A DNA stretch of 64,000 nt from Asanoa ferruginea (GTDB taxonomy: Bacteria > Actinomycetota > Actinomycetes > Mycobacteriales > Micromonosporaceae). The position numbers were made by a program, and so were the translations under genes. The notes below the pieces were generated by a model. That model was not told the origin of the DNA. It worked only from the letters and a program-made list of their open reading frames with translations, and ran no database searches. This document shows positions 26,126 to 42,634 of this stretch, piece after piece. Location of the stretch: positions 5,828,001 to 5,892,000 of the forward strand of contig NZ_QUMQ01000001.1 of assembly GCF_003387075.1 (NCBI RefSeq), written 5' to 3'. Position 1 is the stretch's first letter. Each line of letters begins with the position of its first letter.

Positions 26126-28064
26126 TCGGGGTCGGTCGGCTTGCGGCGCAGTTCCCGGACAACGCCATGCCGCTTGAGCGCCCAGGCCAGCCGGCGGGCG
26201 GGCCGGTGCCGCAGGAGCAGCAGGATCGCCTGCCCGATCAGGGTCAGCCGGCGGCCGCGGAACTCGTCTTCGGCCACCTTCCACACCAGCGCCCGCAACG
26301 CCGGAGACTCGAGGGCGTCGCGAAACTCGGCGCGGACGGCCGGATCGTCGAGGGCGGACCGGATCGCGGTCGCGAGCCCGGGCCGATCGGTGAGGTTGTC
26401 GGCGATCGCGTCGGCGAGGCTGTGCCGGATGTCGTCGGTCTCGATCAGCAGCAGCACCGCACGGCGGATCTCCGCTTCCTCCAGCGCCGACCGCAGCAGG
26501 TCCATCGCCCGCTGCCGCACCTCGTCGTCGTGGTCGTCGACGGCGAGTGCGGCGAGCAGCGACGTCACCTCGTCGAGGTCGATCAGATGCTGGAGGCCGG
26601 CCCGGAAGTCGGGACGTTCCCAAGCGGCCAGCAGCACCTTGACCACATTGCGATCCATGCCCTCTCTTACCCGATCGACACCCGGGTTATCCTCTACCCG
26701 GTTGAACGACGGCCGGCCGCGCAGGTAAAGGTGTAGCCACACCGCCTGCCAGCCGGTCTCGCCCTTCGCGAACACCATCGGCAGCGCGACCCGGCCCTGG
26801 CCGCGCAGGTGGGAACGCGCCCGCACGGTCCGCGCGTCGAACGGTGCTCCCTTCTGGTCTCGCGTGCGGGTCTGGTAGCCGAACATCGACTCGCCGATCT
26901 CGTCGAACGACTCGCCCGCGTAGATGAAGACCTGCGGAACCACGTAAGGCGCGTCGACGTCGAGCGGCACGTCGATGAACTCCGTCGCACCGTTTGTCGC
27001 GTCGGTGATGTCGCCGGAGTGCACCACGCCGCCGTGGTGGTAGTTGGTGATTGACACCTGCCCAGCGGTGTGGAAGTCGCCGTCGAGGAGCAGCACCGAC
27101 AGGTCGTAGTCGGTGCGCCGGCTGGTCTGCCGCCAGTAGGTGAAGAAGCGCAGCAGCTCACCGGACACCGCTGCCCGGGAACCCCTTGGCAGCACCGCGA
27201 ATCCGGCCTCGGTCGCCTTGCCGGACAGCGGCAGCGCGACGTCGAGCACGGCCGGGTCGACCACCAGCGGCCGCTCGGGTTCCGGCAGCCGGGCGCTGAT
27301 CTCCTTGTCCAGCAACGCCGACAGCTCGGCCACCAGCTCGGCCGGCAGCGGCGGCCGCTTGTCCGGACCGACCCAGGCGCGGCGCGAACGACCCGGCTAG
27401 ATCCGGGCCGACGCGGGCGCCAGACGGGTGGCCACGTGCTCACGCAGCGAGCAGAGCACCCGGCCCGACGCCGAGCCGAGCGCACCCGTCACCGCCTCGA
27501 CCACGACGCTCCGCTCGGCCGGCGATGCCAGTCGCAGCAACCGGTCGGTGGAGCGCAGCAGCAGGCCCGGCGCGGCCGACAGCACCGACGCGGCCGGGGC
27601 GATGGCTCCGGCGCGGATCGCCGCCTCGGTGCGGCCGGCGATGCTGGGCACTCGACGCTGTCCACGTGCGACAGTGAAAACCTCCTGGGCGTGCGGCCAC
27701 TGGGCGTATTCGTGCGGGTGCAGCCGCTCGCCGAGCCGCTTCCACCGCTCCGCGTAGCGCGCCACGTCGGCGAGCTTGCCCGGGCTCGCGCCGACGACCT
27801 CGTCGAGCGAGGCCAGCAAGACCCGCCGCTCCGGGGGACGTGGTCGCCGACCAACTCGCGCACCGCCGACACGACCGTGGCGGCGAGGTCCATCGCCGGC
27901 CCGGGAGCCAGCGTGCCGATGTGTGCGAGCAGCGCCTCCGACGCGGAGAACCCGACATCGAGCAGCGCCGCATCGAGCTGGCGGGCCACGGGAGTGCCGT
28001 CGCCGGCCGCGCCGGTGCTCGCCGGGACACGCAAGGTCTTCTGAATGATCAGCTTCTCGAGCAC
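26116..28064 (-). pseudogene. SCO0854/MXAN_6230-like gene broken by one frameshift and one amber codon
   Basis: Three pieces reading on the minus strand join into one protein of about 650 codons. The N-terminal piece (from GTG 28064 after GGAGG; LEKLIIQKTLRV) runs to GDHVP, where a C-run (G5 at 27833-27837 on the plus strand) is one base short. Restoring one C gives DHVP-PERRVLLASLDEVV in frame. That piece contains GERLHPHEYAQW and APGLLLRSTDRLLRLA, then stops at TAG 27397-27399. Directly in frame after it come RRAWVGPDKRPPL and the C-terminal domain with PRGSRAAVSG, DYDLSVLLLD, GVVHSGDITDA and YVVPQVFIY. These words match my memory of the MXAN_6230/SCO0854 family. The family's N-terminal RING region is not seen, so it is missing or was deleted. 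Sequencing error could explain one or both lesions. Confidence 0.7.
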
Positions 28065-28097
28065 GCCGACCTCCACTTTCAACGCAGGCCGCTGGCG

Positions 28098-28682
28098 TCA
28101 GCGCATCAGACGTTCGATCGTCCATTCCCCGAAGAGCGAGCCCCATGGCAGCCCACCGTCTTGATCGTCGGTGAAGAAGTCCGTCGGATCCGTGGTGTGC
28201 ACGGATTCCCACAAGGTCAGTACGGGGTCGTCGGGCAGATTCAATTCAAGGCCGCCGACCAGCGTGGCCTGAACCTGATCGAGGTCAGGACATCCGCGTC
28301 GCATGTCATCCTCGAGCCACGCCTGGGCTCTGCGCATCTGGTCGAGATCGCCGCCGCCGGAGAAGCCGAGCAGGTCGCGCCAGTTGGGCAAGGCGACCAT
28401 CGTGGCCAGCGAGCTCCCTAGGCTGGATCCGACCATGCCGGCGCCACCTTCGGAGTCCGCATACATGACGCGTTGCGTGGGCGCCTCCGCGCCGACGGAG
28501 AAGAACCTCCCCGCGGCGCCGTCGCACGCGATGAGGTGCAGGCTCGCGCCAGAGGACAACCGCGCACCGGATCCGGTCACGGACGCGATGTCTTCGACAT
28601 CGAAGTAGACCAACTGCCGCAGCACGCCAGAGATTGATGGTGTTGCCGCCATCCTGCGGAGGAGCGATGCGTCGTCGAGCAT
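28098..28682 (-). CDS. Uncharacterised protein, possibly SMI1/KNR4-like
   Basis: This 194-residue soluble protein has an early strand LIACDGAAGRFFSVG, then MYADSEGGAGMVGSSLGSSLATMVALPNWRDLL and a C-terminal LPWGSLFGEWTIERL. The pattern resembles uncharacterised actinobacterial proteins distantly related to the SMI1/KNR4 (SUKH) group, whose members often neutralise toxins or organise protein contacts. The match is weak and I do not assign a function. It lies just upstream of the broken SCO0854-like gene on the same strand. Confidence 0.55.
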   Translation of the reverse strand: MLDDASLLRRMAATPSISGVLRQLVYFDVEDIASVTGSGARLSSGASLHLIACDGAAGRFFSVGAEAPTQRVMYADSEGGAGMVGSSLGSSLATMVALPNWRDLLGFSGGGDLDQMRRAQAWLEDDMRRGCPDLDQVQATLVGGLELNLPDDPVLTLWESVHTTDPTDFFTDDQDGGLPWGSLFGEWTIERLMR

Positions 28683-28739
28683 CGGCGAACACTACAGCCA
28701 TCGCGGAACCGCCCGGGCAGTGGCGACGTCACAGCTCGT

Positions 28740-29618
28740 ATGGCCCGGCGTGTGTTTCCCGTGTTCTGCATGGCGCTCGCTGTCGTCGCGCTGGTCGGCG
28801 CGTGTGCGCGGCCCGGCACGCACGACGTCGTTGGCGCTCCGCGCGGCCCCGGCGTCATCGACAGCGCGGGGGAGTGGGACACGTTCCCCGTCGACCGGGT
28901 GCCGCGCCCGATCATCGTGAGCGGCGGCATGGTCGGGTGGGCGGCCGCGGCCGGTGGCGCGGCCACCGGGTTCCGCACCGGCGATGCCAAGCTGGCGTTC
29001 CTGGCCGGGCGGATCGAGCTGGCCACGACGGCGCCCGAGGCGCCGGCGACCGTCGATGCCTACCTGTTCGACGGGCGGTTCACCCTTCCGGCATTGCCCC
29101 CGGCCGACGCGTTCGCATCGCTGCGCGGGCAGGGCTCGGCCGATGCCAGCCTCGCGCCCGTCCGTTTCACAACGGTGACGCTGGGTTCCGCGGCGTTCGA
29201 CACCGACCGCGGCCCGCTGCGGCTGCCGGCCTGGCTGTTCGGTGGGCCCGACGTCAACGGCACCGTCGCCTGGCCGGCCGTGGGCAAGGAGGCGTTCTGG
29301 CGCTACGGCGAGCCCAACAACGCCGCGACGCTGCCGCCCACCCACGTCTCACCCGACGGCCGGCGGATCCGGACCGCCGTGCCGGGGAGAGGCTGTCGGA
29401 GCGACCCGGTGATGCGCTACCGGGTCGAGGTCACCGAGACCGCGACCACCGTCCTGCTCACCACCGTGGGTGAGACCGTGTCGACACCCGGCCCCGAGGA
29501 GCGGGACCAGCCCTGCGTCGCGATCGCTCGAGCGGGGGAGCCCTACGACGTCTACCTCGCCGCTCCTCTCGGCAACCGCGTGGTGATCGAGAGTCCGGAG
29601 GTTTTGTCGGACCGCTAG
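28740..29618 (+). CDS. Putative secreted lipoprotein
   Basis: This 292-residue protein has a basic start, a hydrophobic segment and a lipobox LVGAC with Cys22, so it should be lipidated and held at the outer membrane face. The mature part is beta-rich (DAYLFDGRFTLPALPP, RYRVEVTETATTVLL) with a GCRSDPVM loop, and contains two further cysteines (GCR, PCVA). I do not recognise a family. It is divergent from the previous minus-strand gene. Confidence 0.65.
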   Translation: MARRVFPVFCMALAVVALVGACARPGTHDVVGAPRGPGVIDSAGEWDTFPVDRVPRPIIVSGGMVGWAAAAGGAATGFRTGDAKLAFLAGRIELATTAPEAPATVDAYLFDGRFTLPALPPADAFASLRGQGSADASLAPVRFTTVTLGSAAFDTDRGPLRLPAWLFGGPDVNGTVAWPAVGKEAFWRYGEPNNAATLPPTHVSPDGRRIRTAVPGRGCRSDPVMRYRVEVTETATTVLLTTVGETVSTPGPEERDQPCVAIARAGEPYDVYLAAPLGNRVVIESPEVLSDR

Positions 29619-29632
29619 GCCACACTGCCCGC

Positions 29633-30199
29633 ATGACATTGACGACTCGCATGCTCGCGCCGGAGACCTGGTCCGACTTCGCGGCGCTGGTCGAGGCCAA
29701 CAATGGCGTGTGGGGTGGCTGCTGGTGCATGGGCTTCCATCCGGAGGGCGTCGGCGCCGGGCACACCGCGGCCGGCAACCGCGAGGCCAAGCGTCAGCAC
29801 GTGACGCGCGGATCGGTCCACCAGGTGCTCGTCTACGACGGCGATCGCTGCGTCGGCTGGTGTCAGTTCGGCTCCCCGCCCGAACTGCCCAACATCAAGA
29901 ATCTCCGCGCATACGAGCGAGGGCTCGACGAACTGCCCGACTGGCGCATCGGCTGCGTGTTCACCAACTCGAAGGATCGTGGCAAGGGTGTCGCCGCCGC
30001 CGCGGTCGCCGCGGCCCTCGACGAGATCAAGCGGGCCGGCGGCGGTGTCGTCGAGGCCTACCCGGAGCAGACCGAGGAGCGGCCGCCGCAGCGGGGAGCC
30101 TTCCTGCACACCGGGCCCGAGGAGTTATACGCCCGGCACGGCTTCGCCCGGGTCCGCAAGATCGCCAAGTGGCGGTGGGTCATGCGCGCCACGATCTGA
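29633..30199 (+). CDS. GNAT N-acetyltransferase
   Basis: This 188-residue protein carries the GNAT fold. The acetyl-CoA loop appears as SKDRGKGVAAAAVAAALDEI, followed by GGGVVEAYPE and the closing FLHTGPEELYARHGFARVRK. The N-terminal GGCWCMGFHPEG cysteines are typical of a family subgroup. Acceptor substrate unknown. It is a single gene 14 bp after the lipoprotein gene. Confidence 0.85.
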   Translation: MTLTTRMLAPETWSDFAALVEANNGVWGGCWCMGFHPEGVGAGHTAAGNREAKRQHVTRGSVHQVLVYDGDRCVGWCQFGSPPELPNIKNLRAYERGLDELPDWRIGCVFTNSKDRGKGVAAAAVAAALDEIKRAGGGVVEAYPEQTEERPPQRGAFLHTGPEELYARHGFARVRKIAKWRWVMRATI

Positions 30200-30226
30200 C
30201 CCCGGATCACGTCTCGACATCAGCTA

Positions 30227-30287
30227 TTGACGCCGTCGTAACACGTGTCTTACCGTTCGTCGAACCGGTTAGTCGAAACGCTTCGAC
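30227..30287 (+). promoter_or_regulatory. Promoter and LacI-type operators before the lacI-family gene
   Basis: A possible sigma-70-type promoter is TTGACG (30227-30232) and TACCGT (30251-30256) with an 18-bp spacer. Just downstream are two overlapping LacI-style sites: GAACCGGTT around 30262-30270 and the inverted repeat GTCGAA-ACGC-TTCGAC at 30272-30287. The second has the CG-centred form usual for LacI-family operators. They sit about 45 bp before the regulator start, so autoregulation is likely. Confidence 0.65.
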
Positions 30288-30332
30288 GACGGGCCCGGGA
30301 GCGATCCCACTGCTGGCCAAGGGAGGTGCGCG

Positions 30333-31385
30333 GTGGCCACCATGCACGACGTCGCCCGCCTTGCCCGGGTCTCGGTCAGCACCGTGTCTTACGTGCTCAC
30401 CGGCACCCGCCCGATCTCCGAGGCCACCCGCACCAAGGTGCTCGCCGCGATGGCCGAGCTCGACTACCAGCCCAACGCGATGGCCCGCGGCCTGGCCACC
30501 CGGCGCAGCCGGATCGTCGGCCTGCTGATGCCGATGGACGAGCGCGGCCTGGGCGCCACCGAGACCGCCTTCGTGACCGGTGCGGCGGCCGCCGCCAGCG
30601 TCGCCGGCTACCACCTGGTGCTCTCCCCGGTCGGTGCCGCCGACGTCGACGACCTGCGCCGGCTGGCCACCCAGCGGATGCTCGACGGCGTTGTGCTGAT
30701 GGAGGTGCAGGTCGAAGACGGCCGGGTCGCCGCCCTCCAGGAGGCCGGGCTGCCGGTGGTGCTGATCGGGCGGACGGCCGACACCACCGGCCTGCCGTTC
30801 GTCGACATCGACTTCGACCAGACCGTCCGCGAGGCCGTCGCGCACGTCGTCGGGCTAGGCCACCGCCGGATCGTCTACGTCAACCACTCGGCCGCCGCGC
30901 TGGCGGCCGGCTACGGGCCGGCGGTGCGCACCCGCGACGCGTTCTTCTCCGCGATGACCGGGCACGGGCTCGAGCCCGTGATGATCCCGGCCGAGGACAG
31001 CGCCGCCGGCGGCCGGGCCGCGTTGAGCGCGGCCATCGAGCGAGCTCCCGACCTGACGGCTGTGCTGGCCATGAACGAAAACGCGATCTTCGGCATCCTC
31101 GGCGAGCTGGCCGTGCGGCGGCGGGTGGTGCCCGACGACGTCTCGGTCGTCTCGATGGTGACCTCGCCGCAGGTGGCCGAGCTGGCCCACCCGGCACTGA
31201 CCGCGATGACCTCACCCGGTGCGGCGCTCGGCCGGATCGCGGTGGAGGCCCTGCTACGCCAGTTGGACGGCGCGGGCGGGGAGACCCACCAGCAACTGCT
31301 GCCGTGCAAGTTGGAGATCCGTGGATCGACCTGTCCGACCAGGAAGCAACACGAGCTGACCGGCTCGGGACCGCCGGGCAGCTGA
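30333..31385 (+). CDS. LacI-family transcriptional regulator
   Basis: This 350-residue protein begins with the LacI HTH and hinge (MHDVARLARVSVSTVSYVLTG, then PNAMARGLATRRS) and continues as a periplasmic-binding-protein-like sensor domain (GLLMPMDERG, VDIDFDQTV, ALSAAIERAPDLTAVLAMNENA). It most likely represses the sugar importer and hydrolase genes downstream until an oligosaccharide or its product binds. The GTG at 30333 follows GGGAGG; an ATG nine bases later is possible. The C-terminus runs past the usual Cys-rich tail with a short basic end. A hairpin separates it from the transport genes. Confidence 0.9.
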   Translation: MATMHDVARLARVSVSTVSYVLTGTRPISEATRTKVLAAMAELDYQPNAMARGLATRRSRIVGLLMPMDERGLGATETAFVTGAAAAASVAGYHLVLSPVGAADVDDLRRLATQRMLDGVVLMEVQVEDGRVAALQEAGLPVVLIGRTADTTGLPFVDIDFDQTVREAVAHVVGLGHRRIVYVNHSAAALAAGYGPAVRTRDAFFSAMTGHGLEPVMIPAEDSAAGGRAALSAAIERAPDLTAVLAMNENAIFGILGELAVRRRVVPDDVSVVSMVTSPQVAELAHPALTAMTSPGAALGRIAVEALLRQLDGAGGETHQQLLPCKLEIRGSTCPTRKQHELTGSGPPGS

Positions 31386-31396
31386 GCAAGCAAAAA

Positions 31397-31428
31397 GCCC
31401 GTCGCCGCGCTGGCACGCGACGACGGGC
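31397..31428. terminator. Hairpin between regulator and binding-protein genes
   Basis: GCCCGTCG (31397-31404) pairs with CGACGGGC (31421-31428), extended by four more inner pairs with two mismatches. A run of five A precedes it. It lies between the LacI stop and the binding-protein start, so it may limit read-through from the regulator transcript. Confidence 0.6.
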
Positions 31429-31466
31429 GGGCAAGTACCGGCTCGATACTCATCAGGAGGATAGCA

Positions 31467-32777
31467 ATGGGGCGATTCCGCAAGCTGGGCGTCGCTGTCG
31501 TGTTGGCGGCAATAGCCGGCACGACGCTGGCCGCGTGTGGCGGCGATGGGGGTGGCGGCAGCGAAGGCAGCGACGCCAAGGTTCTCAAGCTCTGGCACTA
31601 CGAGAGCGACAACAGCGCGATGGGGATCGCCTGGGACAAGGCGATCGAGATCTTCAAGACCGAGCACCCGGGCGTCGAGGTCCAGTTCGAGCGCAAGGCG
31701 TTCGAGCAGATCCAGCAGAACGCCGGCATGATCCTCAACTCCACTGAGGGTCCCGACATCATGGAATACAACAAGGGCAACGCCACCGCGGGCCTGCTCT
31801 CGTCCCAGGGCCTGCTGACCGACCTGACCGCCGAGACCGAGAAGCGCGGCTGGGACAAGAAGCTCAGCCCCAGCCTCCAGACCACCGCCCGCTACAGCGA
31901 CAAGGGCGTGATGGGCGACGGCAACTGGTACGGCATCCCGAACTACGGCGAATACGTCATGGTCTATTACAACAAGGACCTGTTCGACAAGAACGGCGTC
32001 GCCGTGCCGACCACCTACGACGAGTTCACCAAGGCGATGGACACGTTCGTGGCCAAGGGCATCACGCCGCTGGCCGAGGCCGGCGCCGAATACCCGGCCG
32101 GTCAGCTGTTCTACCAGCTCGCGCTGGCCAAGGCCGACCGCTCGTTCGTCGACAACTACCAGCTCTACAAGAACCCGGTCGACTTCAAGGCCGACCCGCT
32201 GAAGGCCGGCGCGCAGGCCTTCGCCGACTACGTGGCCAAGGGCTACGTCGCCAAGGACTCGGCGAGCCTCAAGGCTGAGGACATGGGCACCGCGTTCATC
32301 TCCGGCAAGGTCCCGATGATCGTCTCCGGTAGCTGGTGGTACGGCCGGTTCAAGGACGAGATGAAGGCCAACTGGGACTCGTTCCTGTTCCCGGGCAACA
32401 AGCTCAACGCCGGCTCGTCGGGCAACCTCTGGGTGGTTCCCACCAGCAGCAAGGCCAAGAGCCTCGCCTACGACTTCATCGACATTACGATGCGGCCGGA
32501 GATCCAGGCGCTGATCGGCAACAACGGTGGTGTTCCGGTGGCCGCCGACGCCTCGCAGATCACCGACCCGAAGAACAAGAAGCTGATCGAGAACTTCAAC
32601 ACGGTCAGCCAGCAGGACGGTCTGGCGTTCTACCCGGACTGGCCGGTGCCCGGCTACTACGACGTGCTGGTCTCCGGTTTCCAGAGCCTGATCAACGGCT
32701 CGAAGACGCCCGACCAGGTGCTCGACGCGATCGCCAAGCCCTACAGCGACGGCGTCAAGGAGATCACCGGTAAGTAG
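31467..32777 (+). CDS. Sugar ABC transporter solute-binding lipoprotein
   Basis: This 436-residue extracytoplasmic lipoprotein has a signal ending in LAAC with Cys24, then a SBP_bac_1-type domain (KVLKLWHYESDNSAMGIAW at the start, GISGK- and IVSGSWWYGRF-like strands in the middle). It captures an oligosaccharide and delivers it to the two permeases downstream. An AGGAGG site lies 8 bases before the ATG. The large hairpin after it may raise its expression relative to the permeases. Confidence 0.92.
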   Translation: MGRFRKLGVAVVLAAIAGTTLAACGGDGGGGSEGSDAKVLKLWHYESDNSAMGIAWDKAIEIFKTEHPGVEVQFERKAFEQIQQNAGMILNSTEGPDIMEYNKGNATAGLLSSQGLLTDLTAETEKRGWDKKLSPSLQTTARYSDKGVMGDGNWYGIPNYGEYVMVYYNKDLFDKNGVAVPTTYDEFTKAMDTFVAKGITPLAEAGAEYPAGQLFYQLALAKADRSFVDNYQLYKNPVDFKADPLKAGAQAFADYVAKGYVAKDSASLKAEDMGTAFISGKVPMIVSGSWWYGRFKDEMKANWDSFLFPGNKLNAGSSGNLWVVPTSSKAKSLAYDFIDITMRPEIQALIGNNGGVPVAADASQITDPKNKKLIENFNTVSQQDGLAFYPDWPVPGYYDVLVSGFQSLINGSKTPDQVLDAIAKPYSDGVKEITGK

Positions 32778-32785
32778 AACGGCGA

Positions 32786-32814
32786 GGGGTGGGCGCGCCC
32801 GGCGCGCCCACCCC
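32786..32814. repeat. Strong intergenic hairpin between binding-protein and permease genes
   Basis: GGGGTGGGCGCG (32786-32797) and CGCGCCCACCCC (32803-32814) form a perfect 12-bp stem with a 5-base loop. The permease ATG is 18 bases further on with its own GGAAGGA site. Hairpins at this position in sugar importer operons stabilise the binding-protein end of the message and lower permease output. That is the likely role. Confidence 0.75.
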
Positions 32815-32831
32815 ACCCGGAAGGATCTCCC

Positions 32832-33770
32832 ATGGCACTCACCGAGATCGAGCCTGCCAAACCACGGCGCAAGCGCCGCGGTGGCGGCGCCGGCTACTGG
32901 CTCTACCTGCTGCCCGGCGCGGTGCTCTTCATCCTCGTCATCGGCGCTCCGCTGGCCGGCACCCTCTACCTGTCACTGACCAAGTGGTCCGGCGTCGGTG
33001 ACCCCACCTTCATCGGCTTCGACAACTACACGCGCCTGTTCCAGGACGAGGTGTTCTGGACGTCGTTCAAGAACACCCTCGCGATGATCGTCGCGATGGT
33101 GGTCGTGCCGACGCTGCTCGGGCTGCTCCTGGCCGCGGTGCTCTTCGACGTCATCGCCCGCAGGTTCAAGCCGCGCACCGCCGCCGCTTTGCGCGCGGCG
33201 TTCTACCTGCCGCAGGTGCTCCCGGTCGTGGTGGCCGGCATCGTCTGGGGCTGGATCCTGCGGCCCGACGGCGCGTTCAACAGCCTGCTCGACTCGATCG
33301 GTCTCGGTGCCCTGCGGCACGACTGGCTCGGCGACCCCCACACCGCCCTGCCCAGCGTGATGGCGGTGATGATCTGGGTGCAGATCGGCTACCCGATCGT
33401 CGTGTTCATGGCGGCGCTGCAACGGGTCGATCCCGAGCTCTACGAGGCCGCCGAGGTCGACGGTGCCAACTGGTGGCACCGCTTCCGGTCGATCACCCTG
33501 GCGCAGATCCGGCCCGAGACCTTCGTGGTCGCGCTGACCTGCACGATCGCCGCGCTGAAGGTGTTCGGCCCGGTGTTCGCGCTGACCCGCGGCGGTCCCG
33601 AGAACGCGACCAACGTCCCGTCCTACTTCGCCTACTTCACGTTCTTCAAGAAGCTCCAGGTCGGCTACGGCTCAGCCATCTCCACCGTGCTCACCCTGAT
33701 CATCGTCGTGGTGGCCGCGGTGTTCATCTGGCTGCAATACCGCAGCGAGCGCCAGGACCGGGAGGTCTGA
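32832..33770 (+). CDS. Sugar ABC transporter permease (MalF/UgpA type)
   Basis: This 312-residue inner-membrane protein has six hydrophobic segments, starting with YWLYLLPGAVLFILVIGAPLAGTLYLS. The EAA loop that contacts the ATPase is seen as YEAAEVDGANWWHRFRSITL. With the next gene it forms the transmembrane channel. The following start is one base after the stop, so the two permeases are co-translated. Confidence 0.92.
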   Translation: MALTEIEPAKPRRKRRGGGAGYWLYLLPGAVLFILVIGAPLAGTLYLSLTKWSGVGDPTFIGFDNYTRLFQDEVFWTSFKNTLAMIVAMVVVPTLLGLLLAAVLFDVIARRFKPRTAAALRAAFYLPQVLPVVVAGIVWGWILRPDGAFNSLLDSIGLGALRHDWLGDPHTALPSVMAVMIWVQIGYPIVVFMAALQRVDPELYEAAEVDGANWWHRFRSITLAQIRPETFVVALTCTIAALKVFGPVFALTRGGPENATNVPSYFAYFTFFKKLQVGYGSAISTVLTLIIVVVAAVFIWLQYRSERQDREV

Positions 33771-33771
33771 G

Positions 33772-34674
33772 ATGGCCACAACCCTCGCACCGGCGCCCGC
33801 GCCGGCACCGGCCCCGGCATCGACCCGGCGGCGCAAGACCCGCGACCGGCACCACCGGGGCATGAGCCGCTGGCTCGTGCTCACCCTGATCACGCTGGCC
33901 GCGCTGGTCATGCTCGTGCCGTTCGTGTTCATGCTGCTCAACGCGTTCAAGTCGCCCGCCGACTATTCCAACGGCGGCCCTTTGAGCTGGCCGAGTGAGT
34001 TCTACACGAAGGGCCTGTCGACCTACTGGACCACGGTCAACTTCCCGCTCAAGTTCTGGAACTCGTTCCTCATCGCCGGCTCCGTCGCGGTGCTCGGCGT
34101 GGCGGTCTCGGTGCTCAACGCCTACGCGCTCGGCATCGGCCGGGTCCGTGGCCGGCTCTGGATCGTCGGTCTCTTCCTGCTGGCCAACATGCTGCCGCAG
34201 GAAGCGTTGATCTATCCGCTCTACTACATCTCGAAGCAGATCGGTCTCTACAACACCCAGCTCTCGGTGATCATCATCTTCACCGTCATCCAGAGCGCGT
34301 TCGGCACCTACCTGCTCTCCTCGGTGCTGGGCACCTTCCCGCGCTCGGTGCTCGAGGCGGCGGCGCTCGACGGTGCGGGCAAGTGGACTGTGCTGCGGCG
34401 GGTGGTCTTCCCCAACCTGCGGCCGACCCTCATCGTGCTGCTGATCTTCTTCTTCATCTGGACCTGGAACGAGTTCCTGATCCCGCTGGTCATGCTCATC
34501 GACAACAGCACGCAGACCATCCCGGTCGCGCTGGCCTCGTTGCAGGGCGACCGGCTGATGGACGCGCCGACGACCAACGCGGGCGCGCTGATCAGCCTGG
34601 TGCCGGCGATCCTTTTCTTCATCATTTTCCAGCGCACGTTTTCGCGCGGCATCACAGCAGGAGCCGAGAAGTGA
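33772..34674 (+). CDS. Sugar ABC transporter permease (MalG/UgpE type)
   Basis: This 300-residue permease has an N-terminal Ala/Pro run (APAPAPAPAPA), six membrane segments and an EAA motif (LEAAALDGAGKWTVLRRVVFP). It pairs with the preceding permease. No ATPase gene follows; the transporter probably borrows a shared MsiK-type ATPase, as many actinobacterial CUT1 importers do. The next start overlaps its stop (GTGA). Confidence 0.92.
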   Translation: MATTLAPAPAPAPAPASTRRRKTRDRHHRGMSRWLVLTLITLAALVMLVPFVFMLLNAFKSPADYSNGGPLSWPSEFYTKGLSTYWTTVNFPLKFWNSFLIAGSVAVLGVAVSVLNAYALGIGRVRGRLWIVGLFLLANMLPQEALIYPLYYISKQIGLYNTQLSVIIIFTVIQSAFGTYLLSSVLGTFPRSVLEAAALDGAGKWTVLRRVVFPNLRPTLIVLLIFFFIWTWNEFLIPLVMLIDNSTQTIPVALASLQGDRLMDAPTTNAGALISLVPAILFFIIFQRTFSRGITAGAEK

Positions 34675-36893
34675 AGTTCACCGACGGATACTGGCAACTG
34701 CGACCGGGGGTCAGCGTGCTGCGCCCCGGTGCGGTCGAGTCGGTCGAGCTCGACCAGCGCGGTTTCACCGTCTTCGCACCGACCGGCCGGATCACCAGCC
34801 GGGGCGACACCCTCAACCGGCCGATGGTCACCGCCCGGTTCTTCTCTCCAGCCGACGGCGTCATCGGCGTCACCATCGCCCACCACCTCGGCGGGCTGCC
34901 CAAGCAGCCGGCGTTCGCGCTGGCCGCCGGCGACGACCACGCGGTCACCGTCGACGTCTCCGGCCTGTCCGCCACGCTGACCGCCGGCGAGCTGACCGCC
35001 CGGGTCGCGCTCGTCGACGGCTGGCGGGTCGACTTCCTGCACGGCGACCGGGTGCTCACCTCGTCGACCGAGCGCAGCGTCGGCCTGGTCACCGACGCCG
35101 ACGGCCGGGCACACGTGCACGACCGGCTGGCGCTCGGGGTCGGCGAGACCGTCTACGGCCTGGGGGAGCGGTTCGGTGCCTTCGTCAAGAACGGCCAGAC
35201 CGTCGACATCTGGAACGCAGACGGGGGTACGGCCAGCGAGCAGGCGTACAAAAATGTCCCGTTCTATTTGAGCAGCGCCGGCTATGGCGTCTTCGTCGAC
35301 CACCCTGAGCACGTCTCCTTCGAGATCGGGTCGGAGGTGGTCTCGCAGGCCCAGTTCAGCGTCGAGGGCCAGTCGCTGACCTATTACCTCGTCGACGGCC
35401 CGACCCCGAAAGACGTGCTGCGCCGCTACACCGCGCTGACCGGCCGCCCGGCCCGCGTGCCGGCCTGGTCCTACGGGCTGTGGCTGTCGACCTCGTTCAC
35501 CACGTCCTACGACGAGAAGACCGTCACCGAGTTCATCGACGGGATGGCCGAGCGCGACCTGCCGCTGTCGGTGTTCCATTTCGACTGCTTCTGGATGCGG
35601 CAGTTCCACTGGGTCGACTTCATCTGGGACCCGGAGACCTTCCCCGACCCGGAGGGGATGCTGCGCCGGCTGCACGAGCGCGGCCTCAAGGTGTGCGTCT
35701 GGATCAACCCCTACATCGCCCAGCGCTCCTACCTGTTCGAAGAGGGGCGCCGCAACGGCTACCTGGTGCTGCGGCCCGACGGCTCGGTCTGGCAGTGGGA
35801 CAAGTGGCAGGCCGGCATGGCGCTGGTCGACTTCACCAACCCGGAAGCCGTCGCCTGGTACCAGAGCAAGCTCAAGACGTTGCTCGACCTGGGCGTCGAC
35901 AGCTTCAAGACCGACTTCGGCGAGCGCATCCCGACCGACGTGGTCTGGCACGACGGCTCCGACCCGCAGCGGATGCACAACTACTACGCGCAGGTCTACA
36001 ACCGCGCGGTCTTCGAGTTGCTGGAGGCCGAGCGCGGCAAGGGTGAGGCGGTCGTCTTCGCCCGCTCCGCCACCGCCGGCGGGCAGCAGTTCCCGGTGCA
36101 CTGGGGTGGCGACTCCGAGTCGACGTTCGCCTCGATGGCCGAGTCGCTGCGCGGCGGGCTGTCGCTGGCCGCGTCCGGTTTCGGCTACTGGAGCCACGAC
36201 ATCGGCGGCTTCGAGGGCACCCCCGACCCGGCGGTGTTCAAGCGGTGGGTCGCCTTCGGGCTGCTGTCCTCGCACTCCCGGCTACACGGATCCGGCTCCT
36301 ACCGGGTCCCGTGGGCGTTCGACAGCGAGGCGGTCGACGTGCTGCGGCACTTCACCCGGCTCAAGCTCTCGCTGATGCCCTACCTGGCGGCCGTCGCCGA
36401 GGAGGCACACCGCGAGGGCCTGCCGATGATGCGACCGATGGTGCTCGAGTTCCCCGACGACCCGACCGCGGCCTACCTCGACCGGCAATACATGCTCGGC
36501 CCCGACGTGCTGGTGGCGCCGGTGATGAGCGCCGACGGCGAGGTGACGTTCTACGTGCCGGCCGGCACCTGGACCCACCTCGTGACCGGCGAGCGGCTCA
36601 CCGGGCCGGCCTGGGTGACCGAAAAGCACGAGTTCGACAGCGTCCCGGTGCTGGCCCGGCCCGGCGCGGTGATCCCGTTCGGCGACCGCGACGACCGGCC
36701 AGACTACGAGTGGGCCGACGGCGTGCGGCTGCGCCTGTACGCTCCGGCACAGGGGCAGCGCACCCGGGTCAGCGTTCCGTCGCCTGGAGACGGGCCCGGC
36801 GCCGAGTTCGAAGTGCGCTACGACAATGGAGAGGTCACCGCGGAGTTGATCGCGGGGTCGTCTTCGGGTTACCGGGTTGAGGTGGGACAGTGA
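34671..36893 (+). CDS. yicI: GH31 alpha-xylosidase
   Basis: This 740-residue cytoplasmic enzyme removes alpha-linked xylose from the non-reducing end of isoprimeverose and xyloglucan oligosaccharides. Nucleophile Asp415 lies in SFKTDFGE and acid/base Asp481 in WGGDSEST, one residue off the YicI positions 416 and 482. YicI specificity residues are matched too: Phe276, Cys306-Phe307 in FDCFWM, Trp344 and Lys413 (YicI 277, 307, 308, 345, 414). That separates it from alpha-glucosidases. The GTG at 34671 overlaps the permease stop. The GH1 gene overlaps its end by four bases. The gene symbol is by orthology from memory. Confidence 0.92.
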
Positions 36894-38281
36894 GCGATTT
36901 TCCGGAGAGCTTCGTCTGGGGTTCGGCGACGGCTTCCTATCAGATCGAGGGTGCGGCCACTGAGGACGGTCGGACACCGTCCATTTGGGACACCTTCAGC
37001 CACACGCCGGGGCGCACGCTCAACGGCGACACCGGTGACGTGGCCGCCGACCACTACCACCGCTGGCAGGAAGACCTCGACCACATCGCGGCGCTGGGCC
37101 TCGACGCCTACCGGTTCTCGATCGCGTGGCCGCGGGTGCGGCCGGGCGGTTCCGGGCCGTTCAACCAGGCCGGGCTCGACTTCTACTCGCGGCTCGTCGA
37201 CGGCCTGCTGGAGCGCGGTGTCCGGCCGGTGGCCACGATGTACCACTGGGACCTGCCGCAGGAGCTCGAAGACGCCGGCGGCTGGGCGACGCGGGAGACC
37301 GCGCTGCGCTTCCAGGAATACGCGGCCGGCATCGTCGAGGCGCTCGGTGACCGGGTGCACACCTGGACGACCCTCAACGAGCCGTGGTGCTCGGCCTACC
37401 TGGGCTACGCCTCGGGCGTGCACGCGCCGGGCCGCACCGACCCGGCGGCGGCGCTGGCCGCGGTCCACCACCTCAACCTGGCGCACGGCCTGGCCGGCCA
37501 GGTGGTCCGCGAACTGGCCCCGGCGGCCCAGCTTTCGGTGACGCTCAACCTGCACGTCATCCGCCCGGAGTCAGACTCGGCGGAAGACCGCGACGCGGCG
37601 CGGCGGATCGACGCACTGGCCAACCGGGCGTTCCTCGGCCCGATGCTCGACGGTGCCTACCCGGCCGACCTGCTGGCCGACACCGCCGCCATCACCGACT
37701 GGTCGTTCGTCCGCGAGGGCGACGAGAAGCTGATCGCGGTGCCGCTCGACGTGCTCGGCGTCAACTACTACTCGAGCACCCTGGTCCGCGCCTGGGACGG
37801 GGTCTCGCCCCGGTCCGACGCCGACGGTCACGGCCAGTCCGCGGCCTCGCCGTGGGTCGGCGCCGACAACGTCGACTTCCTGCCGCAGCCCGGCCCCTAC
37901 ACGGCGATGGGTTGGAACATCGACCCGCCGGCGCTGACCGAGCTGCTGCTGCGGCTGCGTGACGAATATCCACGACAGCCGCTGATGATCACCGAAAACG
38001 GCGCCGCGTTCGACGACGTCGTCTCGCCCGACGGCACGATCCAGGACGACCGCCGGATCGACTACCTGCACCGGCACATCGCCGCGGTGGCCGAGGCGCG
38101 GGCACAGGGCGCCGACGTCCGCGGCTATTTCCTCTGGTCGCTGCTCGACAACTTCGAGTGGGGCTACGGCTACGACCGCCGGTTCGGGATCATCCGGGTC
38201 GACTACGACACCCAGGTGCGCACCTGGAAGCAGAGCGCCCACTGGTACCAGCGGCTCGCGGCCACCGGACAACTTCCCTAG
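36890..38281 (+). CDS. GH1 beta-glucosidase
   Basis: This 463-residue cytoplasmic GH1 enzyme hydrolyses beta-linked glucosyl units. The acid/base Glu164 lies in TLNEPW and the nucleophile Glu369 in ITENGAAF. The N-terminus [15 protein letters not shown] and C-terminal [18 protein letters not shown] are typical; length is normal. It would cut the cello-oligosaccharide backbone exposed after xylose removal. GTG start overlaps the alpha-xylosidase stop. It overlaps the convergent GyrI-like gene by 4 bp at CTAG. A beta-galactosidase or fucosidase activity cannot be excluded. Confidence 0.92.
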
Positions 38282-38886
38282 GCGCTGATCCTGGACACGG
38301 GCTGGCGGAGGATGGTGCGCAACTTCGCCGGCTCGGTCCGCCGCGGGTCGCTGAGATAGATCTCGTGGTGCCGGCCGTCGAACGCGAGGCCGTTCGCCGG
38401 CATGAACTCGTGGTGTAGGCGGTGCAGCAGCGGTGCTTCGTCGTCGAAGGATCCGATGTGGAGCACCTGCACGGCGAGCCCTTCCGCGTAGGGCGCGAGC
38501 CGCACCGCCGGTGAAGCCTTCTTCGCGGCGACGGCCTCGTCCACCATGGCCGGCGTGATCCATTCCGGCTGGGTGATCATCATGGTCCATTCCCAGTCGT
38601 CCTTGGCCCGGTCGATGAACTTCGCCGGGTCGTCGGCCGACCACAGACCCTCCAGCGGCGCGACCACGTAGTCGCGGTCGAGCTGCCGCTTGCTGGCGAA
38701 CTTCAGCGCGTAGGAGACGGCGAACAGCGCGGCCACGGCCTCGGAGTAGGCACCGCTCGTGTTCGGGTCGCCCTTGCCGTCGACCATCAGAAAGGGCAGC
38801 TCCGGCACGTCGAGGAGCTGGAACGCGCCGGCCCGCGGTGCGTAGAGATCCCTACGATCGCGCTTGATGTCCGACTTTCCCGCCAC
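38278..38886 (-). CDS. GyrI-like small-molecule-binding domain protein
   Basis: This 202-residue protein has the pattern of the SCO-type GyrI-like/effector-binding group. It opens [32 protein letters not shown], and a middle portion [25 protein letters not shown] precedes [21 protein letters not shown] and a C-terminal [24 protein letters not shown]. Members bind drug-like ligands, sometimes act on them, and usually lack a DNA-binding domain. The GTG at 38886 follows AAGG. The gene is divergent from LysR with a 26-bp gap. Confidence 0.8.
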
Positions 38887-38912
38887 CCGGCGCACCTTAC
38901 TAGGGTTGGGGT

Positions 38913-39722
38913 ATGGATCGACCGGAGGTTCGCGACCTCGTCTACTTCGCCGCGGTGGCGGAGCACCGGCACTTCGGCCGCGCCGCCGAGCAACTGGGTA
39001 TGGCACAGCCGCCACTGTCCCGCGCGATCAGCCGGCTGGAGCGCCGGTTGGGCGTCCTGCTGTTCGACCGCACCAGCCGACGGGTCGACCTGACGAAAGC
39101 GGGCGAGGTGTTCCTGCGGGAGACCCGCAAGACCCTCGCCGCGCTCGACACTGCCGTGCGCCGGGCACAGCAGGCGGCCCGGCCCCGGCGGCTGGTGCTC
39201 GCCGCTCCGGCCGGCACCGGCGCGGGCCGGCTCGCCGAGATGCTCGACGAATACCGCGGCGGCGCGGACTCCGTACCCGTGGAAATGCTCTTCACCACCG
39301 ACCTGGGCGGCGCGGTCCGCGGCGGTGCCGCCGACGCGGCGCTCATGTGCAGCAGCGACGATCTCGACGGGCTCGACTCGGTCGACCTGTTCGACGAGAC
39401 CCCGGTCGCGCTCCTGCCTGCGGGCCACCGGCTCGCCGCGCGCGACGGCCTGACGATGCGCGAGCTCGAAGCCGACGACCGCTTCTGCGCGCAGCCGCCG
39501 CCGCTGGGCATCGACGAACTCGTCGACCGGATCGCGCTCGGTGAGCTCGTGGTGCTGTCCGGTGCGAGCTCGACCGACCGGCTCGGCTCGGCCGTGGTGG
39601 CCGTTCCGGTGCGCGACGTGCCGATCAACCGGATCGTGCTGGCGTGGCCGCGCGAAACCCACTCGGCGGAGCGCGAGCGACTCGTCCGCAGCGCGGTCGA
39701 CGTGGCGGTCAGATCTGGTTGA
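38913..39722 (+). CDS. LysR-family transcriptional regulator
   Basis: This 269-residue regulator has an N-terminal winged HTH (VAEHRHFGRAAEQLGMAQPPLSRAISRLERRLGVLLFDRT). A type-2-PBP-like effector domain follows and is shorter than the usual 300-residue LysR length. The target is unclear: the divergent GyrI-like gene shares a very short intergenic region, and the convergent SDR overlaps its end by 14 bp. Confidence 0.87.
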   Translation: MDRPEVRDLVYFAAVAEHRHFGRAAEQLGMAQPPLSRAISRLERRLGVLLFDRTSRRVDLTKAGEVFLRETRKTLAALDTAVRRAQQAARPRRLVLAAPAGTGAGRLAEMLDEYRGGADSVPVEMLFTTDLGGAVRGGAADAALMCSSDDLDGLDSVDLFDETPVALLPAGHRLAARDGLTMRELEADDRFCAQPPPLGIDELVDRIALGELVVLSGASSTDRLGSAVVAVPVRDVPINRIVLAWPRETHSAERERLVRSAVDVAVRSG

Positions 39723-40461
39723 CGCCGCCGTCCACCACGAGTTCGGAACCGGTGATGTAGCTGCTCTGGTCGGAGGCCAGGAACAGGGCCGCGGCGGCCT
39801 GCTCGGCCGCGTCGGCGACCCGTCCCAACGGCACGCCCGAGGCCAGGAACGTGATGAACTCGTCCCCGGTCATACCCGCGGGGGCGTTGCCGCGCAGCAT
39901 CGGCGTGTCCGTCGTGTGCGGCGCGAGCGCGTTGACCCGGATGCCCCGCTCCTTGAGCTCGATGGCCCAGTTGCGGGTCAACGACCGGACCCCGGCCTTG
40001 GCCGCGGCGTAGAGCCCGATGCCGACGCCACCCCGACTGGCCATGGTGGACGAGCAGAGGATCACCGACGCGTGGTCGTTGAGCAGCGGCAGCGCCTTCT
40101 GCACGGTGAACACCGCGCTGCGCAGGTTGAGCCGCGTGGCGTGCTCGTAGTCGTCTTCGGTCACCTCGGCCAGCGGCCGCATCGGCGCACCGCCCGCGTT
40201 GGCGAACAGCACGTCGATCCGCCGCCCGTCGGCTCCGATGGTGGCGAAGAGCCGTTCGAGGTCGGCCACGTCCGTGACGTCGCCCTGCACCCCGCTGGCG
40301 CGGGCCGCGCCGATCCGCACCACGGCCTCGTCGAGCTCCGGCTTGCGCCGTCCCGTGAGGTAGACGTAGGCACCCTCCTCGGCGAAGCGCAGCGCGCTGG
40401 CGAACCCGATGCCCTCGCTGGCACCCGTCACCACCGCGACCTTGCCGTCGAGCTGACCCAT
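39709..40461 (-). CDS. Short-chain dehydrogenase/reductase
   Basis: This 250-residue classical SDR has TGASEGIG (residues 12-19), ANAGG at about 85, catalytic Ser in LCSSTM and YAAAK as the YxxxK motif. The C-terminal ITGSELVVDGGVNQI is the usual end of 3-oxoacyl-reductase-like SDRs. The ATG at 40461 follows GGGGAG; the longer frame from 40527 lacks a ribosome site. Substrate unknown. Confidence 0.87.
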   Translation of the reverse strand: MGQLDGKVAVVTGASEGIGFASALRFAEEGAYVYLTGRRKPELDEAVVRIGAARASGVQGDVTDVADLERLFATIGADGRRIDVLFANAGGAPMRPLAEVTEDDYEHATRLNLRSAVFTVQKALPLLNDHASVILCSSTMASRGGVGIGLYAAAKAGVRSLTRNWAIELKERGIRVNALAPHTTDTPMLRGNAPAGMTGDEFITFLASGVPLGRVADAAEQAAAALFLASDQSSYITGSELVVDGGVNQI

Positions 40462-40568
40462 TGCTTTCTCCCCTGACTCGCTGGTCCGCGCGGCCGGCCG
40501 GTTGACCGCCCGCCGCAGCCAGTCCATCTCGCGGGAGCTGCACCAACAATGATCAATTCGGCAAGGAC

Positions 40569-40587
40569 CGATACCCGAGAGGTATCG
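40569..40587. promoter_or_regulatory. Perfect 7-bp inverted repeat upstream of the SDR and CadD-like genes
   Basis: CGATACC (40569-40575), CGAGA, then GGTATCG (40581-40587) form a palindrome in the divergent gap between the SDR and the cadmium-type transporter gene. It is a plausible operator for either direction. No regulator gene of the ArsR/CadC type lies next to it. Confidence 0.45.
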
Positions 40588-40673
40588 ATCCGCCCGACTC
40601 GAACCCGACCAGCGCCTTGTGAGACGCTGGCGCTCACCTCGGCGCCCCCACCCCCGGATCAGAAGACCGTTCC

Positions 40674-41276
40674 ATGGACCTAGGCATCATCGGCCAGGCC
40701 GCCGGCCTGTTCGCCGTCACCAACATCGACGACATCCTGGTCCTCGCGCTCTTCTTCGCCTAGGGCGCCGGGCACCGCGACGCCACCCGCAACATCGGCG
40801 CAGGCCAATATCTCGGTTTCGCGGGCATTCTCGCGGTCGCCGTGGCCGCCGCGTTCGGTGCCACGTTCCTGCCCGAGAGCGCCGTGCCGTATCTCGGCCT
40901 TCTCCCGCTCACACTCGGCATCAAAGCCGCCGTGCAGGCCTGGCGGCACCGCGGCGACGACGACGGCGAACCCGAGCTCACGCACGGCGGCCCGCGGATT
41001 CTCGAGGTCGCCGCCATCACGTTCGCCAACGGCGGCGACAACATCGGCGTCTACGTGCCGGTCTTCGCCACCGCCGGCACCGGCGGCATGACCGTCTACG
41101 TGGTCGTCTTCCTGATCCTGGTCGCCGTCTGGGTCGCAGCCGGGCGCTACCTCGCCACCCGTCCCGTCGTCGCCAGAGCCCTGAGCCGATGGGGCCACAT
41201 CCTGCTGCCCGTCGTCTTGATCGGCATCGGCCTGCTCATCCTCATCGAAGGCGGCGCCTTCGGGTCAACAGGTTGA
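40674..41276 (+). pseudogene. CadD-like cadmium/cation transporter gene with an in-frame amber codon
   Basis: From ATG 40674 the frame reads TNIDDILVLALFFA then TAG at 40761-40763 (codon 30), and continues in the same frame as an intact CadD-family protein to TGA at 41276. The rest has GAGHRDATRNIGAGQYLGFAG, then hydrophobic segments with VAAITFANGGDNIGVYVPVF and a C-terminal LLPVVLIGIGLLILIEGG. The family usually has Gln or Arg after FFA, so TAG probably arose from CAG by one transition. Without suppression only 29 residues are made. An internal restart could make a truncated five-TM product. Sequencing error is possible. Confidence 0.8.
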
Positions 41277-41301
41277 GTGGAACCGCCCACCGGGCGATCG
41301 G

Positions 41302-41760
41302 TCAGGAGTCATGAGTGGTCTTCCCGAGCTCTTCGGCCAGCCCGACGATGATGCCTTCCGGGCCGCGGACGTAGCAGAGCCGATAGATCTCCTCGTAGCG
41401 GGCCACCTCGCCGACGAGTTCGGCGCCGTGGGTGCGCAGGCGGGCGACGACGTCGTCGATGTCGTCGACGGCGAACATGATCCGGCGGATGCCCAGCGTG
41501 TTGGCCGGCGCGTCCGCCGGCCCGGCGCTGATCGCCTTCGGCGCGTGGAACATCGCCAGCTCGACCCGGCCGTGACCGTCTGGGGTCCGGAGCATCGCGA
41601 CGTCCTGCCGGACATCGCTGATCCCGATGACCTGCTCCACCCAAGGTCCTTCAACCGGTCCCTTGCCCTCCAGCTCCATGCCCAGTTCGACGAAGAACGC
41701 GATGACAAGATCAAGATCTTCGACGACGATGAGTACGTTGTCCATCCGCTGGAGCGTCAT
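41302..41760 (-). CDS. VOC-family protein
   Basis: This 152-residue vicinal-oxygen-chelate protein opens RMDNVLIVVEDLDLVIAFFVELGMELEGK. It has a central RRIMFAVDDIDDVVARL segment and ends YVRGPEGIIVGLAEELG. The ATG overlaps the stop of the nucleotidyltransferase gene (ATGA), so the two are coupled. Substrate unknown; possibly detoxification alongside its partner. Confidence 0.82.
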   Translation of the reverse strand: MTLQRMDNVLIVVEDLDLVIAFFVELGMELEGKGPVEGPWVEQVIGISDVRQDVAMLRTPDGHGRVELAMFHAPKAISAGPADAPANTLGIRRIMFAVDDIDDVVARLRTHGAELVGEVARYEEIYRLCYVRGPEGIIVGLAEELGKTTHDS

Positions 41761-42590: not shown

Positions 42591-42634
42591 GCCGGCAGAC
42601 TATCGACTGACCGGCGGCCGTGCATGGATGCGCT

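Follow-up and report, generated by a model that had tools for sequence, protein, structure and literature searches.

Loci for the uptake and digestion of xyloglucan oligosaccharides are already known from other bacteria. The closest known to the locus described here, as far as the available portions of the published accounts go, are those of Ruminiclostridium cellulolyticum and Anaerocellum (Caldicellulosiruptor) bescii. The R. cellulolyticum locus comprises SBP2458/TMD2457/TMD2456, Gal42A, Xyl31A, Glu3A and XygS/XygR (PMC4780118, PMC8576529). Its solute-binding protein (SBP) is described as having a Kd of about 4 nM for XXXG and as not binding isoprimeverose (PMC4780118). In A. bescii, the importer is Athe_2052-2054 and the GH31 enzyme is Athe_2057, with the ATPase MsmK supplied in trans (PMC12710961).

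The window, which is the whole stretch of 64,000 nucleotides of Asanoa ferruginea DNA that was analysed, harbors six genes (Table 1) that most likely serve a soil actinobacterium in the sensing, import and breakdown of xyloglucan fragments. On sequence grounds, it is quite probable that they form an operon, repressed by LacI, through which xyloglucan oligosaccharides are taken up and digested in the cytoplasm. An SBP with two membrane subunits, and a GH31 enzyme and a beta-glucosidase that would alternate in the cytoplasm, are common to this locus and that of R. cellulolyticum, for which the available text names no ATPase gene with the importer (PMC4780118). The endo-xyloglucanases of R. cellulolyticum, including a GH74 enzyme, are described as extracellular, like the GH74 enzyme proposed here. 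The differences from the R. cellulolyticum locus as described are that a LacI protein takes the place of the two-component system and GH1 that of GH3, that the cluster has no neighbouring GH42 and that the host is an actinobacterium; GH3 or GH42, as in R. cellulolyticum, do occur in sister lineages of the window's cluster. With A. bescii the locus shares an SBP, a pair of CUT1 permeases, a nearby GH31 alpha-xylosidase and, presumably, an ATPase acting in trans, whereas Athe_2052 is a 551-aa cluster G xyloglucan SBP and the window SBP, compared by sequence, has 436 aa (PMC12710961).

Table 1. Features of the cluster, with positions in the window.
Feature	Position	Strand	Description
Putative sigma-70-like promoter	30227-30256	+	-35 TTGACG 30227-30232, -10 TACCGT 30251-30256, 18-bp spacer
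Tandem putative LacI-type operators	30260-30286	+	O1 TCGAACCGGTTAGT 30260-30273 (imperfect), O2 TCGAAACGCTTCGA 30273-30286
lacI	30333-31385	+	LacI-family regulator, 350 aa; PF00356 70 bits, PF13377 87 bits
lacI-SBP hairpin	31397-31428	+	13-bp stem, no T-run; 0-3 tandem copies in relatives
SBP gene	31467-32777	+	CUT1 solute-binding lipoprotein, 436 aa; PF13416/PF01547
Post-SBP hairpin	32786-32814	+	Perfect 14-bp stem; z -3.65, 1/200 shuffles equally stable
Permease gene 1	32832-33770	+	CUT1, MalF-like, 312 aa; PF00528
Permease gene 2	33772-34674	+	CUT1, MalG-like, 300 aa; PF00528
GH31 gene	34671-36893	+	Predicted alpha-xylosidase, YicI type, 740 aa; NCBIfam NF007940, PDB matches, residues
GH1 gene	36890-38281	+	Beta-glucosidase, 463 aa; TIGR03356, PDB match, motifs

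The sequence-only reading had described three transport and two glycosidase genes as contiguous, the last four of them with 4-bp or 1-bp junctions, which is borne out by the gene coordinates: 1 bp separates the permease genes, and 4-bp overlaps join the second of these to the GH31 gene and the GH31 gene to the GH1 gene. The position at which it began the cluster, 30227, is the first base of the TTGACG hexamer. The GH31 frame starts at 34383 in the program-made list of open reading frames; the start was assigned to GTG 34671 because of homology and the 4-bp overlap with the upstream permease gene. A search of 30000-38500 against Rfam gave no matches.

The GH31 protein passes sequence tests for a YicI-type alpha-xylosidase, its predicted activity. 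It scores 1239 bits against the NCBIfam alpha-xylosidase model NF007940 (cut-off 606), and its top PDB matches are YicI structures (8t7z, 1we5, 2f2h and 1xsi; 946-957 bits). Many alpha-glucosidases also belong to GH31, several of them ranking below YicI in the same PDB list, and the operon might accordingly import maltose, isomaltose or other alpha-glucosides for a GH31 alpha-glucosidase. This is extremely unlikely: the alpha-glucosidase models reach 269-276 bits, far under their own cut-offs (276 against 553 for the next best), the YicI pocket residues are conserved, and relatives pair the enzyme with beta-glucosidases, with GH42 and, at a single locus, with GH74. Alignment to YicI, which had been proposed as a check, pairs window F276, C306, F307, W344, K413, D415 and D481 with YicI F277, C307, F308, W345, K414, D416 and D482, within a stretch identical at 211 of 309 positions. 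The seven residues named beforehand, with numbering one off, thus match, and together with the model scores and PDB matches they support the earlier assignment as alpha-xylosidase, not alpha-glucosidase. We take it from work on YicI that Asp416/Asp482, Phe277, Cys307, Phe308, Trp345 and Lys414 set xylose specificity. The named residues presumably line the -1 (xylose) pocket, for which "aglycone-site", the term used before, was the wrong word.

All of these positions (YicI numbering) but one are kept in 40 of 40 family GH31 orthologs (F277, F308, W345, K414, D416 and D482); position 307 is C in 29 and T in 11. The other GH31 match of the same genome has E, A and W at positions 277, 307 and 308. 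The window enzyme shares with Escherichia coli YicI (1xsi, 2f2h, 8t7z) its GH31 subgroup and every named pocket and catalytic residue, but differs at W449, which is replaced by F in this enzyme and in 39 of the 40 orthologs. The E. coli partner transporter of YicI is presumably YicJ.

The GH1 protein scores 601 bits against TIGR03356 (cut-off 478.5), has the beta-glucosidase 1gnx as its best PDB match and carries the catalytic motifs TLNEP at 161 and ITENG at 367. The GH1 fold has no preceding leader peptide as judged by eye, indicating that the cluster includes a cytoplasmic beta-glucosidase.

Neighbourhoods were compared in two partly overlapping sets. Family loci numbered 40, taken from 60 other GH31-positive family genomes (GH31 threshold 1e-200); named loci were the best 80 of 587 relatives, so that their counts lean toward close relatives. 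L095, L125 and L130, at a minimum, coincide with L033, L054 and L059, and contig ends cut some named loci. Genes in fetched loci were called by a simple codon-usage script, making starts approximate. The orthologous SBP-permease-permease set accompanies GH31 in 35 of 40 family loci. Among the best 80 of 587 relatives it does so in 34, the other 46 lacking the full orthologous transporter, some owing to contig ends. GH1 occurs in 11 family loci and GH3 in 11, either being found in 22 of 40. In these counts, GH3 means any match above 150 bits to the L060 protein; nine full-length members cluster together, and the Pfam check covered the L060 copy. Gaps in GH1 and in the transporter among relatives are points against a xyloglucan operon.

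The palindrome TCGAAnCGnTTCGA lies behind a conserved putative promoter and ahead of lacI. The hexamers that would form this promoter are conserved in 14 aligned close relatives and less so in 4 more distant ones. O2 is the sole exact TCGAAnCGnTTCGA in the 9.07-Mb genome. Of the 40 family loci, 38 contain the palindrome, as do 50 of the 80 named loci (best 80 of 587 relatives; sites counted per locus, without gene assignment), and seven control palindromes, made as rearrangements or letter swaps of it, were found in none of either set. With up to 3 mismatches, the pattern occurs 6 times in the window against 5.98 in shuffles; as this equals chance, weight is placed only on near-exact sites. 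The LacI protein, for which no NCBIfam equivalog scored above its cut-off, would bind the tandem operators. There is perhaps an even chance that actinobacterial alpha-xylosidase loci constitute one xyloglucan regulon marked by TCGAAnCGnTTCGA, read by LacI proteins down to 37-39% identity to that of the window and joining interchangeable parts (two importer types, GH1/GH3, GH42, stand-alone GH31), the operator staying constant while genes and regulator vary.

The operator also bears on whether the operon serves cellobiose or other beta-glucosides, with GH31 as a passenger. GH1 is a generic beta-glucosidase, as that would require, yet GH31 and the transporter stay linked while the beta-glucosidase changes or drops out. 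Moreover, the operator precedes GH31 genes that have no adjacent orthologous transporter (L050, L055, L056 and L064), and TGGGAGCGCTCCCA, which we take to be the CebR-type box, is absent from the 40 family loci and occurs in only 2 of the 80 named loci (best 80 of 587 relatives). Such a role is very unlikely.

ABC importer genes lie next to the GH31 alpha-xylosidase gene in the window. Cys24 of the SBP is invariant across 33 aligned sequences, and the protein was read as a lipoprotein by eye. By sequence it resembles PDB entries for other sugar SBPs, whose oligosaccharide ligands are mixed, and the comparison pointed to no ligand. The lacI-SBP hairpin occurs just once in the genome even when up to 3 mismatches are tolerated, and the lacI-SBP gap as a whole folds no better than shuffles (z -1.12). 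The hairpin 3' of the SBP gene is a candidate processing or stabilising element.

A smaller substrate deserves more weight than the preceding alternatives, though it too is unlikely: the operon may serve mainly isoprimeverose or other small alpha-xylosides made extracellularly, and not XXXG-size fragments, with GH1 acting on other beta-glucosides. The SBP is of ordinary CUT1 size, GH1 is absent from 5 of 15 close loci, and no beta-galactosidase was found beside the cluster among ten scanned neighbour genes (26116-44239). On the other hand, GH1 or GH3 occurs in 53 of the 80 named loci (best 80 of 587 relatives), which fits a backbone with more than one glucose, and the R. cellulolyticum SBP in the same role is described as binding XXXG and not isoprimeverose (PMC4780118). 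If the operon serves xyloglucan oligosaccharides, as preferred here, galactosylated fragments would need another enzyme or the one match, distant from the cluster, that a search of the genome for GH42 gave, since the scanned neighbours include no beta-galactosidase; this is a point against the xyloglucan operon. A GH42 beta-galactosidase is present in 15 of the 80 named loci (best 80 of 587 relatives), 14 of which lack the orthologous importer.

The window had been said to hold neither an importer ATPase nor an extracellular endo-xyloglucanase. Both statements agree with the searches: there was no match to PF17912 (MalK-type ATPase), the genome's matches lying in four places outside the window, and none to PF15902 (found in GH74), the xyloglucanase family that the search covered. 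The gap is filled by genes elsewhere in the genome. A GH74 xyloglucanase with CBM2 (902 aa; 1033 bits to Gly74A), judged by eye to have a secretion signal, is encoded about 0.79 Mb from the cluster, giving the genome a secreted endo-xyloglucanase, and a xylose isomerase scores 705 bits. Membership of the GH74 gene in the same operator regulon was rejected, as its 19.5-kb surroundings hold no site with 2 or fewer mismatches. Its distance and lack of a nearby operator, and an SBP shorter than Athe_2052, are points against a xyloglucan operon.

In relatives, GH74 lies beside the orthologous cluster in one locus, Virgisporangium L130. That GH74 is inside the fetched stretch of only 1 of the 80 named loci (best 80 of 587 relatives) counts against a xyloglucan operon. 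Adjacency in three loci was rejected; L130 is real, and L143 and L144 match the CBM2 part only, in L143 through a kinase-CBM2 protein. GH74 (threshold 1e-80) was sought in 101 genomes (G000-G100, some incomplete) of the 150 searched for GH31. It was present in 34 of 39 GH31-positive and 29 of 62 negative genomes (p 4.5e-5), leaving 5 GH31-positive genomes with no match. Among genus representatives (G000-G044 minus G018, one per listed genus label) it was present in 16 of 16 and 14 of 28 (p 4.8e-4). This co-occurrence also reflects shared ancestry. The proposal that imported xyloglucan fragments are broken down in the cytoplasm gains support from the GH31 family, the active-site residues, the neighbourhoods, the GH74 gene in the genome and its co-occurrence with GH31.

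In the proposed pathway, the secreted GH74 endo-xyloglucanase would cleave xyloglucan, and fragments would be imported through the lipoprotein SBP and two permeases with energy from a shared MsiK/MalK-type ATPase encoded elsewhere. GH31 would take alpha-1,6-xylose off the non-reducing end and GH1 the beta-glucose then exposed, in alternation, an order borrowed by analogy from the available description of R. cellulolyticum (PMC4780118). Xylose isomerase would act on the xylose, and the glucose would enter glycolysis. A fragment or product may make LacI leave the tandem operators, which follow closely on the -10 element, turning on lacI and the downstream genes. The sequences themselves show the genes and their enzyme families, the active-site residues, a conserved operator and a GH74 gene in the genome; ligand, inducer, binding of LacI to the operators and pairing with the ATPase are inferred.

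Finally, what is new here is a DNA switch apparently common to related bacteria, which is a testable prediction. The results offer a concrete xyloglucan route for soil bacteria for which the literature searched, mostly titles and the openings of abstracts, describes none. The conserved operator is a simple DNA mark by which further actinobacterial genomes can be searched for xyloglucan regulons, and it may help predict which beta-glucosidase and transporter belong to such a regulon.

The six genes of the Asanoa ferruginea operon, read as a system for the uptake and digestion of xyloglucan fragments, are separated in gene order by 81 bp, 54 bp and a 1-bp gap, and then by two 4-bp overlaps. None of the ten neighboring genes scanned with Pfam between 26116 and 44239 belongs to a sugar-pathway family, and three of them lack any Pfam match.

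Coordinates of features in the window (G000:C1:5828001-5892000; G000, the 9.07-Mb single-contig genome; C1, its contig) and in fetched stretches (L-numbers, each with its own coordinates)
Feature	Position	Strand	Remark
Acetyltransferase gene	29651-30199		neighbor; Pfam
TTGACG hexamer	30227-30232		upstream of lacI
TACCGT hexamer	30251-30256		upstream of lacI
Operator-like palindrome, imperfect	30260-30273		head-to-tail with second palindrome
Operator-like palindrome, second	30273-30286		upstream of lacI
LacI regulator, solute-binding lipoprotein (SBP), two CUT1 permeases, GH31, GH1	30333-38281	+	six genes
13-bp hairpin	31397-31428		between lacI and SBP
Conserved stretch	31433-31469		before SBP start
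GyrI-like gene	38278-38895		convergent neighbor; Pfam
Second, divergent GH31	L094:7000-9213; G000:C1 ~5.735 Mb		33% identical to operon GH31
GH74 xyloglucanase with C-terminal CBM2	L088:10334-13042; ~6.655-6.658 Mb		902 aa; 1033 bits to Gly74A
MalK-type ATPase	L089:5056-6147
MalK-type ATPase	L092:3880-5187
Kinase-CBM2 gene	L143:2394-3752		Actinomadura mexicana

The GH31 protein scores 1239 bits against the NCBIfam alpha-xylosidase model NF007940 (cut-off 606), and at most 276 bits against alpha-glucosidase models. Its closest solved structures are those of the Escherichia coli alpha-xylosidase YicI, with 211/309 identical residues across YicI residues 207-515. The catalytic Asp pair and five pocket residues listed by the sequence-only reading are all present, numbered one lower than in YicI. 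In YicI, the pocket residues at these positions decide xylose over glucose. F277, F308, W345, K414 and both catalytic Asp (YicI numbering) are conserved in 40/40 Micromonosporaceae orthologs, while position 307 holds Cys in 29 of them and Thr in the other 11. The second GH31, the sole other match when the genome was searched with the operon protein, lacks the YicI pocket residues, having Glu at 277, Ala at 307 and Trp at 308. It adjoins genes that, judged from their first residues, look like its own CUT1 transporter genes; by sequence, this group looks like a different alpha-glycoside system. The GH1 protein exceeds the cut-off of the beta-glucosidase model TIGR03356 (601 bits against 478.5), has 1gnx as its nearest solved structure, and contains both catalytic motifs.

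Other parts are encoded elsewhere in the genome. The N-terminus of the GH74-CBM2 protein resembles a secretion signal by eye. GH74 occurs in 34/39 GH31-positive genomes versus 29/62 GH31-negative genomes (Fisher p 4.5e-5, with shared ancestry still included), and, with one genome per genus, in 16/16 versus 14/28 (p 4.8e-4, with ancestry only partly removed). The observation that the window lacks an importer ATPase is borne out: PF17912 MalK-type ATPases are found at four places in the genome, none inside the window. Two of these genes, in L089 and L092, have no evident transporter gene alongside, judged from their neighbors' first residues. Given that the L089 protein passes the cut-off of the UgpC-type model (451 bits against 432) and L092 does not (394 bits), L089 is the MsiK candidate. 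CUT1 importers of A. bescii are served by a promiscuous MsmK (PMC12710961), and Streptomyces MsiK is reported to act as a shared ATPase (PMC12772271). Outside the window, the genome also encodes a xylose isomerase (705 bits) and a single GH42 (183 bits).

A GH31 match at E <= 1e-200 is present in 61/150 family genomes, the window's own counted. Loci were fetched for 40 of the 60 other positive genomes, and companion genes were found by tblastn. Orthologs of the SBP and both permeases lie beside GH31 in 35/40 of these family loci. None of the other five operon genes was found by tblastn within the fetched stretches of L050, L055, L056 and L064; the permeases of L066, which also lacks the orthologous transporter, are unrelated ones. 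All of the 15 closest loci (L033-L047) contain lacI, the L040 copy being cut by the contig end, and 10 of them contain GH1. In 11/40 family loci, none of them also a GH1 locus, there is a relative of the L060 GH3, a GH3-CBM6 protein by Pfam; nine of these 11 proteins group as one full-length cluster. Among named loci, the best 80 of 587 relatives, 34 have the orthologous transporter and 29 only other CUT1-like permeases; GH1 is present in 34, GH3 in 23 and either in 53. GH42 is found in 15 of these 80, of which 14 lack the orthologous transporter, and GH74 in one, Virgisporangium L130 (818 aa, ~2.3 kb past GH31). An unrelated importer can stand in for the orthologous one, and the beta-glucosidase can come from either of two unrelated families, which argues for the substrate as the theme common to these varied loci.

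A phosphoketolase gene of the xylulose-5-phosphate/fructose-6-phosphate type (Pfam run on the L062 copy alone) is found a few kb away from the GH3-LacI-SBP-permease-GH31 cluster in L062, L063, L065 and L068, and could take up xylose carbon. Immediately upstream of the orthologous SBP-permease-permease-GH31-GH1 cluster, L143 encodes a Ser/Thr protein kinase that also has a membrane-like stretch and carries a cellulose-binding CBM2 domain at its C-terminus; from its sequence, it is possibly a wall-polysaccharide sensor kinase. L144 has a CBM2 match at the equivalent position.

When the upstream regions of the window, of 14 close and of four more distant relatives are aligned (19 in all), the hexamers and palindromes are conserved among close relatives, and sequence farther upstream drifts. 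The operator candidate TCGAAnCGnTTCGA has a single exact occurrence in the window's genome and is present in 38/40 family loci and in 50 of the best 80 of 587 named loci; seven control palindromes have no occurrence across all 120 loci. The family loci without it are L048 and L040, whose fetched stretch begins within lacI. All 51 sites in the family loci and window are intergenic by our own gene calls, and for 49 the closest gene start, 20-252 bp away, is that of lacI (19), SBP (19), GH3 (7) or GH31 (4). In L051 the closest start is that of a divergent 219-aa gene, with SBP ~0.2 kb in the other direction; in L054 the next called gene, 556 bp off, encodes 242 aa and probably represents the beginning of a split SBP frame. 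In L050, L055, L056 and L064, the operator lies 80-128 bp upstream of a GH31 that has no adjoining orthologous transporter. Several loci have the same site beside a LacI just 37-39% identical to that of the window, and we infer that this divergent LacI binds it. No such site lies near the GH74 gene of the window's genome. None of six spellings of the site occurs in the literature text searched.

A perfect 14-bp hairpin (z -3.65) follows the SBP gene, an arrangement often seen where SBP transcript is produced in surplus. The hairpin between lacI and SBP is absent, single, or double or triple in tandem in the same gap of L033-L047. It is unique within the window's genome and is thus not a dispersed repeat; folding of the whole gap is not unusually strong. 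Ahead of the SBP start, AGTACCGGCTCGATACTC...AGGAGGATAGCAATG is well conserved in 14 relatives (L033-L047 minus L040) and includes a short inverted repeat.

The operon fills the same roles as the xyloglucan-oligosaccharide locus of Ruminiclostridium cellulolyticum (PMC4780118), the galactosidase excepted, but has GH1 where R. cellulolyticum has GH3, and LacI where it has a two-component system. That paper also points to similar clusters in bacteria of more distant relationship (its Fig. 12b); the words Streptomyces, Actino and Cellulomonas are absent from its main text. We hold that the operon belongs to this kind of system, whichever size its ligand has. It is not categorically new, and the part of the result worth testing is the predicted operator-defined regulon.
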